From Bacilli bacterium (GTDB lineage: Bacteria > Bacillota_I > Bacilli_A > RFN20 > CAG-826): DNA of 40,102 bases. Shown piece by piece: positions 21,125 through 25,096 of this stretch (its first letter is position 1; each line of letters opens with the position of its first letter). The notes beneath the pieces are model-generated. The model worked only from the letters and a program-made list of their open reading frames with translations. It was not told the DNA's origin and made no database searches. The position numbers and the translations under genes were made by a program. The stretch is from the NCBI GenBank assembly GCA_017635565.1, contig JAGBLE010000011.1, positions 1 through 40,102 of the forward strand, in the 5' to 3' direction.

Positions 21125-21219
21125 TTTATTTAAATTTCACTAAGGACTCGCTATGAAGGTAACCATAAGGTTTTTGAATAAACCTTTTCTATGCGGTTGT
21201 AGCTAGTGAGGCGACAACG
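21125..21219 (-). promoter_or_regulatory. L21 leader (structured 5' region of rplU)
   Basis: The leader between the predicted start near 21219 and rplU holds CTCACTAGCTACAACCGC, a hairpin AGGTTT/AAACCT, and GCGAGTCCTTAGTG. CACTA (21204-21208) and TAGTG (21138-21142) can close the structure. Sequence and place fit the known Firmicutes L21 leader family; a covariance search would confirm it. Confidence 0.8.
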
Positions 21220-21263: not shown

Positions 21264-21941
21264 TTACTTTTTTATCGCTTTAAAGGAAAAATATCCATTT
21301 TCTCCGATGATCAAATGATCAATCATTGGAATATTTACCCTTCGACTTTCTAAAAATAATTCGCTTGTAAAAATCTTATCTTCTCTACTTGGTTCACAAC
21401 TTGAATTTGGATGATTATGAATTAAATAGAAATATTGTCCGTGATGATTATATAACTCCCTCCAAATATCTCGATATGAATAACACATATTTTTCTCTGT
21501 TCCGACATATAATGTTTTTTCATGAATTACTTTTCGACTTTGATTGAGAATTATGAGGATTAAATGCTCTTGATGTTTTGATTTTAAAGTGGTCTTATAT
21601 TTATTGTATAAATATTCAGCGTTAACTTCTACGTTTTCAACATTTTCAGTTTCTTTAGTTAATAAGCGCTTATGAAGTTCAAATATTGCACTTAAATTAA
21701 GCGCTTTTGCATCTTTAATCCCCTTTACTTTTTCTAATTCAAATATCTCAGCTTTAGATAAGTTATACAATCCATTAAATTCACTGATTAAATTAGTAGC
21801 GATTTCTAAAGCATTTACTCCTTGATAACCAGAAGATATAAGTAGAGTAAGTAATTCAATATCACTTAATGTATTAACTCCATATCGAAGTGCTTTTTCT
21901 CGTGGGCGATCTAATTTTGGCAATTCTTTTATCTTTCCCAT
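21264..21941 (-). CDS. radC: RadC/YsxA-type JAMM-domain protein
   Basis: Member of the RadC family, which carries a JAB/MPN zinc-metalloprotease fold; the role in DNA repair or DNA metabolism remains uncertain. The N-terminal UPF0758-type region with RPREKALRYGVNTLSDIELL and a helix-hairpin-helix (IFELEKVKGIKDAKAL) is followed by the JAMM motif HNHPNSSCEPSRED (His175, His177, Asp188) and the closing ENGYFSF. All metal ligands are present. I chose the ATG at 21939-21941 (225 residues), which overlaps the TGA of the upstream peptide gene; a TTG three codons earlier is possible. The usual partners in Bacillus (maf, mreBCD) are absent; here its translation is coupled to a bacteriocin-like peptide, which is unusual. 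Confidence 0.92.
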   Translation of the reverse strand: MGKIKELPKLDRPREKALRYGVNTLSDIELLTLLISSGYQGVNALEIATNLISEFNGLYNLSKAEIFELEKVKGIKDAKALNLSAIFELHKRLLTKETENVENVEVNAEYLYNKYKTTLKSKHQEHLILIILNQSRKVIHEKTLYVGTEKNMCYSYRDIWRELYNHHGQYFYLIHNHPNSSCEPSREDKIFTSELFLESRRVNIPMIDHLIIGENGYFSFKAIKK

Positions 21942-22123
21942 CAGTTCCAAGTAAATTTCCAGCCACCAGGAATAGTCGCTGTTCCTTTTTTAGATAAGAA
22001 GAGCTTATAAACAATTACTGCTAATACTGCTGTTGCTAATACCGCCATCACTGCGGTTAAAGTAATTGCTGCTCCACTTTCTTCATTAATCATTTCTTCT
22101 TGAGTCATAAGTTCGTATTTCAT
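21941..22123 (-). CDS. 60-residue leader-type secreted peptide, bacteriocin-like
   Basis: The protein starts MKYELMTQEEMINEESGAA, an acidic Glu-rich leader like the double-glycine leaders of class II bacteriocins, though with SGA or GAA at the possible cleavage site in place of GG. A hydrophobic, Ala/Val-rich helix follows (about 20-43), then SKK and the tail GTATIPGGWKFTWN with two Trp. The start is set by a strong CAGGAGG five bases before the ATG; an upstream in-frame TTG lies inside the hairpin and is not credible. The stop TGA overlaps the radC ATG. No exporter, modification enzyme or immunity gene is seen in the window, so function is inferred from layout only. A small membrane protein is the alternative. 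Confidence 0.7.
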   Translation of the reverse strand: MKYELMTQEEMINEESGAAITLTAVMAVLATAVLAVIVYKLFLSKKGTATIPGGWKFTWN

Positions 22124-22133
22124 ATTTACCTCC

Positions 22134-22198
22134 TGAGGGACCAAACCAGATATGAATGAATAAAGGCCGATTGATTTTTGTGAGAGTTTGGCCCCTCA
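22134..22198 (-). promoter_or_regulatory. Long hairpin in the 5' region of the peptide gene
   Basis: TGAGGGGCCAAAC (22186-22198) pairs over 13 positions, one of them G-U, with GTTTGGTCCCTCA (22134-22146), enclosing 39 bases. The 3' arm ends next to GGAGG of the peptide ribosome site. The arm CCCTC is itself complementary to that site, so opening the stem could block translation. No T-run follows, so it is not a terminator for valS, which has its own. Confidence 0.55.
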
Positions 22199-22250: not shown

Positions 22251-22277
22251 AAAAAAAAGACCTAACAAGTTAGGTCT
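22251..22277 (-). terminator. Terminator after valS
   Basis: AGACCTAAC and GTTAGGTCT form a perfect 9-bp stem around two bases, followed by eight T residues on the minus strand, 17 bases beyond the valS stop. Confidence 0.9.
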
Positions 22278-24910: not shown

Positions 24911-25085
24911 AAACGTCCCTATTTCTAAGGACGCGATTAACGTGGTACCACCTTAGTTCCCATAAAATTTCTTTATGAGCACTCTTTTGAGTGTTCTCCT
25001 TAGCGACCTTCGTTAAGACTTGCTATTAGGCTTCCACCATCCCTAATTCTCTATGAGCAGTTTCTTAATTACTCCTCTAATTCAT
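24911..25085 (-). promoter_or_regulatory. T-box riboswitch, valine-specific (GUC)
   Basis: The leader of valS contains the T-box sequence AAGGTGGTACCACG, which pairs with uncharged tRNA, and a terminator stem with CGTCC/GGGACG followed by TTTTATTTT. Stem I shows the AGTA bulge, the distal loop GGTGGAAGCC, and an ATTAAGA/TCTTAA helix placing GTC (25005-25007, in CGAAGGTCGC) in the specifier loop opposite AGTA. GUC is a valine codon, agreeing with the gene. Uncharged tRNA-Val would favour read-through. Confidence 0.93.
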
Positions 25086-25096
25086 TGAACGTAGTA

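Follow-up and report, generated by a model that had tools for sequence, protein, structure and literature searches.

A conserved 60-residue peptide encoded 5' of radC in an order of Bacilli: a probable membrane mini-protein precursor and its link to a C39 protease gene beside ybeY

What is made from the short reading frame that overlaps the start of radC, and is its product a peptide destined for export? The window (the whole stretch of 40,102 nucleotides analysed here) carries this frame on its minus strand, and a preliminary description had taken the product for a bacteriocin-like exported peptide, perhaps an orphan precursor. The position of the frame, the peptide sequence with its leader, hydrophobic stretch and tail, and the sharing of bases between the peptide's stop TGA and the ATG of radC (TGATG) are read from the sequence just as they were described. 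A GGAGG ribosome site lies ten bases 5' of the peptide's ATG. The features of the locus and of its surroundings are collected in Table 1.

Table 1. Features of the peptide-radC locus and of its surroundings in the window.
Feature	Position	Strand	Basis and remarks
L21 leader	21133..21208	-	5' of rplU; above the Rfam gathering score
radC	21264..21941	-	Pfam PF04002 + PF20582; HxHx7SxxD motif intact (HNHPNSSCEPSRED)
Peptide gene, 60 aa (MKYELMTQEEMINEESGAAITLTAVMAVLATAVLAVIVYKLFLSKKGTATIPGGWKFTWN)	21941..22123	-	stop included (coding span 22123-21944, stop 21943-21941, read from the sequence); sequence, homologues, dN/dS
Leader, residues 1-17	22073..22123	-	predicted C39 cut after Gly17
Mature peptide, residues 18-60	21944..22072	-	sole part kept by leaderless relatives
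Hydrophobic helix, about residues 19-43	21995..22069	-	predicted membrane-spanning
Conserved tail, residues 47-59 (GTATIPGGWKFTW)	21947..21985	-	predicted beta-hairpin, PGG at the turn
Shine-Dalgarno GGAGG	22129..22133	-	sequence
5' leader hairpin	22134..22198	-	arms 22198-22185 (5') and 22147-22134 (3'); 14 pairs
Terminator-like hairpin	22259..22276	-	between valS and the peptide unit; GACCTAAC/GTTAGGTC inverted repeat, then T run, by eye
T-box leader	24924..25094	-	5' of valS; above the Rfam gathering score
Lipoprotein-like ORF, 295 aa	25154..26041	-	signal LPIVGCGNN; lies between a GTPase gene and the T-box of valS

The peptide gene is under strong purifying selection. The dN/dS ratios were 0.08–0.22 for the window gene against relatives of the same genus or family with unsaturated dS, and 0.00–0.05 for closer pairs of peptide genes. 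These values, well below 1, exclude a chance or decoy frame, and the near-neutral ratio that would have refuted the earlier proposal was not seen. No Pfam or NCBIfam model matched the window peptide up to an E-value of 10, which flags it as a conserved gene covered by no protein family library searched.

The distribution of the peptide was determined in 59 related genomes of the order. It was present in 54 of them, including each of the 42 with a completeness of 90% or more, with one confident copy per genome. The coupling to radC, earlier considered a new arrangement, is conserved across the order: radC lay 3' of the peptide in 51 of 53 loci, the two others being a contig edge and a genome (G058) without a detectable radC match. 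In this genome set valS was found upstream, and rplU-ysxB-rpmA-obgE downstream, in most cases. The radC product of the window matches the Pfam RadC model with an E-value of 2e-26. No immunity gene was apparent in the peptide neighbourhoods, where the neighbours are valS, radC, rplU, ysxB, rpmA and obgE in most cases, and no histidine kinase or response regulator was found in the conserved neighbourhood.

A wider survey covered 395 genomes of the class, with families coded f11, f17, f20, f22 and f25, and weaker relatives of the peptide were found in f20, f22 and f25. Those of f20 and f25 are encoded directly 5' of radC, or one or two genes away from it, followed by mreC and mreD. Those of f22 are encoded directly 5' of rplU or after ileS-lspA, and have GEIKTKD...KW-like tails. 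Family f22 reads TGA as Trp and is for this reason called mycoplasma-like. Several genomes of f11, also mycoplasma-like, have double-glycine peptides encoded 5' of rplU with GxhK...W tails. No radC was present within the stretches read around the f22 and f11 peptides beside rplU or lspA. The names RF39, Erysipelotrichales and Mycoplasmatales probably apply to these groups, as judged, inter alia, from the genetic code and the published arrangement of the orders (PMC10868615). In two genomes (G303 and G204) the peptide gene is present three or four times, mostly as tandem copies 5' of radC.

The leaders of the order were compared with the double-glycine pattern of class II bacteriocins, and the pattern recurs in the majority of the order and also in other families. 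Outside the genus of the window most leaders are textbook cases (for example LTIEEMKNLKGG and KLNDFELEMVEGG), and perfect LxxxE[LM]xx[IVL]xGG leaders occur among the relatives; E at −8 and G at −1 are each kept in at least 90% of the order alignment. The window's own genus has a degenerate cut site, SG in place of GG. Gly17 of the window peptide aligns with the last glycine of the double-glycine leaders, and it is at least 90% conserved in one alignment (A1) and invariant in another (A4). A type IV or Flp prepilin was also considered and is ruled out: the leader fits the double-glycine pattern, and E at +5 is not conserved.

The mature part has 41 residues in leaderless relatives versus 43 in leadered ones. 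Across the order its tail follows the consensus SxxGxxxxPGG[WF]xFxW, in which, in the numbering of the window peptide, G47, P52, G53, G54 and W59 are at least 90% conserved and F57 is invariant. The best 19-residue segment has an average hydropathy of 2.7 in the order. A five-sequence AlphaFold model of moderate confidence (mean pLDDT 71) consists of a long helix, predicted for residues 8–43, and a beta-hairpin tail with predicted strands at 47–51 and 55–59 (pLDDT of this block about 70–74). The net charge is +1.8 after the helix and −0.7 before it, which by the positive-inside rule suggests an N-out/C-in orientation. Taken together, hydropathy, charge and the moderate-confidence model indicate that the mature peptide probably has this topology.

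A leader of this type points to a C39 peptidase. A C39 domain was found in 52 of the 59 order genomes, including the source genome, mostly in a frame of about 400 residues; C39 exporters are about 700 residues long. The gene was located directly 5' of ybeY in 18 of 20 neighbourhoods read, and ybeY, dgkA or cdd, era, recO, glyS and dnaG followed downstream in nearly all of the 20, which places it in a conserved housekeeping cluster. At one locus a single gene separates C39 from ybeY, and two short contigs show no such cluster in view. The preliminary description had proposed a search for a C39-peptidase ABC exporter elsewhere in the genome. A C39 protein is indeed encoded there (398 residues; PF03412, E-value 1e-16), but the Pfam scan of this protein gave neither an ABC_tran nor an ABC_membrane match. 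No other C39 protein was found in the source genome, the assembly of which is about 73% complete. An alignment of the C39 proteins (A3) shows no variation at the catalytic Cys and His and at least 90% conservation of the Asp; the profile made from it matches the chains of PCAT1 (4ry2, 6mpz) and ComA (3k8u, 8hf4).

In other families the machinery beside ybeY takes different forms. Full exporters are encoded 5' of ybeY in f20 (670–690 residues) and f11 (610–690 residues), and one locus of another family combines C39, membrane part and ATPase in one chain (Pfam). Family f25 has C39 alone at this site (116–141 residues). The order's protein has C39 and a membrane part but no ATPase, and it appears to be an exporter that has lost its ATPase domain. 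At two f22 loci the ybeY-linked exporter seems to be broken up into a C39 frame and frames downstream of it; an artefact of TGA being read as a stop may account for part of the splitting.

The co-occurrence of peptide and protease was then assessed. In f20 both are found in the same 16 genomes, and in f22 all 26 genomes with C39 also have the peptide. Family f25 encodes both leadered (57 residues) and leaderless (41 residues) peptides. The Met start of the latter lies nearly at the start of the mature part, with 21 residues to a conserved basic residue versus 23 in the leadered form. Among the f25 genomes with a leadered peptide in which ybeY was found, C39 adjoined it in 15 of 15; among those with a leaderless peptide and a readable stretch upstream of ybeY, it did so in 0 of 22. 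Fisher's test gives a p-value of 1e-10, inflated by kinship, or 1e-9 if one genome with a degenerate leader-like start containing GG and no C39 at ybeY (G472) is counted against the association. A radC tree shows just two or three losses of the leader and yields no more than two independent pairs, so that the statistic is not phylogenetically strong. A second, separate loss of the leader was found in a genome (G541) that has no C39 match genome-wide. Four genomes, two of f25 and two of the order, have a leadered peptide and no C39 (G534, G501, G023 and G051). A ybeY match is absent from all four as well, and the C39 locus is thus probably missing from these assemblies. In two genomes (G478 and G521) the leader's Gly-Gly is encoded as GGAGGT and thereby resembles a ribosome site; leaderless starts could possibly arise in this way.

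In f25 leader and C39 were thus lost together while the mature peptide was kept, which makes C39 the most likely agent of leader removal; the leader pattern, the conserved catalytic residues and the co-occurrence are consistent with this. The earlier suggestion that an acidic leader of the double-glycine type ties the peptide to a C39 peptidase is supported by the perfect leaders of the relatives and by the joint loss in f25. When the families are placed side by side, a series is visible from exporter to bare protease to the disappearance of both protease and leader.

On this basis we favour, with good though not full confidence, an explanation in which a small membrane protein is made from the gene as a precursor. 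The leader of 13–17 residues would be cut after its last glycine by a cytosolic C39 protease, the product of the gene 5' of ybeY. The released peptide of about 43 residues would stay in or enter the membrane as a single helix, with its beta-hairpin-like tail shown to the cytoplasm. Where the coding frame begins with the mature part, the C39 protease would be dispensable. A housekeeping role, rather than one in warfare, is probable from the single copy, the synteny and the purifying selection. Export is not the shared step, because the order has no ATPase, f25 has no membrane part either and the leaderless lineages have no leader. The apparent loss of the ATPase from the order's exporter points to proteolysis, and not pumping, as the step that is conserved; families that have a full exporter may export the mature peptide.

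The RNA around the peptide start was analysed as well. The stem before the ribosome site, previously given as 13 bp, is real and has 14 bp (z = −3.6 versus dinucleotide shuffles), and its 3' arm abuts the GGAGG. A TGAG...CTCA stem is present at the same site in 12 of 17 members of the genus; most of these stems end directly 5' of GGAGG and several start right after a TATATA-like element. Comparison within the genus showed compensatory changes at pairs 5 and 8–11. The recurrence at the same place and the compensatory changes indicate that the hairpin is more than chance, within the genus only. Other families have different hairpins, many of which enclose the ribosome site, and they keep the radC coupling; hairpin type and coupling therefore do not covary, and the conservation of the hairpin is limited to the genus. 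Within the genus the 5'-terminal stem probably sets the stability of the peptide-radC transcript or its translation. At eight loci outside the genus the hairpin pairs with the peptide's GGAGG and is often followed by a T run; such a hairpin may be both the terminator of valS and a lid on the ribosome site.

Three other explanations of the locus were weighed against these data. The stop-start overlap and the upstream hairpin are what one would expect of a cis-acting leader frame that merely sets the translation of radC. The peptide persists, however, where the next gene is not radC, its tail is conserved across orders and its dN/dS is 0.01–0.2, so we give this explanation hardly any weight. Rather more can be said for an interaction with RadC, in which the JAMM domain would cut the PGG tail as a substrate or bind it as a partner: the genes overlap, the coupling is order-wide, the JAMM residues of RadC are intact and some JAMM proteases cleave after Gly-Gly. 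Yet PGG is not kept beyond the order, so that cleavage at this site is rejected as a general mechanism. Moreover, in mycoplasma-like genomes the gene precedes rplU or follows lspA and the stretches read there contain no radC, and G058 has the peptide and no detectable radC. The confinement of PGG to the order and the position of the mycoplasma-like genes make RadC an unlikely general partner, and we regard this explanation as improbable.

The remaining alternative is a class II bacteriocin or a signalling pheromone, the leader of which is cut by a C39 exporter and the mature part secreted. It accounts for the double-glycine pattern of the leader, for the full C39-ABC exporters kept in some families and in mycoplasma-like genomes, and for the several peptide copies of two genomes. 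In addition, 8 of 29 relatives weakly match TIGR03949 (best E-value 8e-5). The window peptide itself matches no family, and for the TIGR03949, NCBIfam and Pfam bacteriocin models it did not reach the curated cut-off. Furthermore, the peptide is universal in the order, occurs in a single syntenic copy and has a conserved mature part. The order's C39 protein lacks an ATPase, f25 has C39 alone, a further group keeps the peptide without leader and without C39, and the neighbourhoods read show no evident immunity gene or histidine kinase. These observations, with the leaderless group making just the mature part, speak against the bacteriocin or orphan exported peptide originally proposed, which we consider unlikely, if the least so of the three.

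Overall, the data are best described by a membrane mini-protein precursor with a C39-cleaved leader. The peptide would then be an ancient single-copy membrane protein, present order-wide and in related Bacilli including mycoplasmas. With somewhat less confidence, we lean towards a so far unrecognised housekeeping system of ancient origin, spread over a large part of the Bacilli as far as the mycoplasmas. In it a membrane mini-protein would be made with a double-glycine leader and matured by a domesticated C39 protease from which the export machinery was repeatedly shed, and the mycoplasma members would be the missing substrates of the orphan C39 transporters that even reduced genomes retain.

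Exporters of f17 with short double-glycine peptides were considered as the same system and rejected, since the leaders match and the mature parts are without the tail. At seven f17 loci C39-ABC exporters are encoded, followed in most by a membrane accessory protein of about 140 residues and often by at least one short double-glycine peptide that contains Cys or has a GRSxG-like end. In many f17 genomes this locus looks like a genuine exported-peptide system.

Double-glycine peptides are usually taken as weapons or signals; the same chemistry here appears to serve a conserved, syntenic housekeeping pathway. With PCAT, ComA/ComC and the class II bacteriocin systems the present one shares a leader with E at −8, L/M at −7, a hydrophobic residue at −4 and G at −1, and a C39 protease with Cys-His-Asp. 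It differs from them in that a long distance separates the peptide gene from the protease gene, each at a fixed housekeeping locus of its own, and in that the peptide is single-copy across the order with a conserved mature part. In contrast to the PCAT exporters, the order's protease has no ATPase, and that of f25 has no membrane part either. The similarity to TIGR03949 (class IIb bacteriocin, lactobin A/cerein 7B), seen in some relatives, presumably runs via the leader; the window peptide is unmatched, and gene context and conservation differ. Nothing on the peptide gene was found among the titles and abstracts listed for lcnDR3 in mycoplasmas or for double-glycine peptides with RadC. The C39 transporters of mycoplasmas, such as JCVI-syn3A 0401, are a further close system: in the mycoplasma-like genomes analysed a C39 exporter is encoded directly 5' of ybeY and a double-glycine peptide 5' of rplU. 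According to a study of JCVI-syn3A (eLife 2019, PMC6609329, citing Dirix 2004), 0401 and other mycoplasma C39 proteins have no known double-glycine substrate, and a lipoate role was proposed instead. A link between the peptide and 0401 is a prediction made from these mycoplasma-like genomes, and it offers the mycoplasma C39 proteins a concrete candidate substrate.
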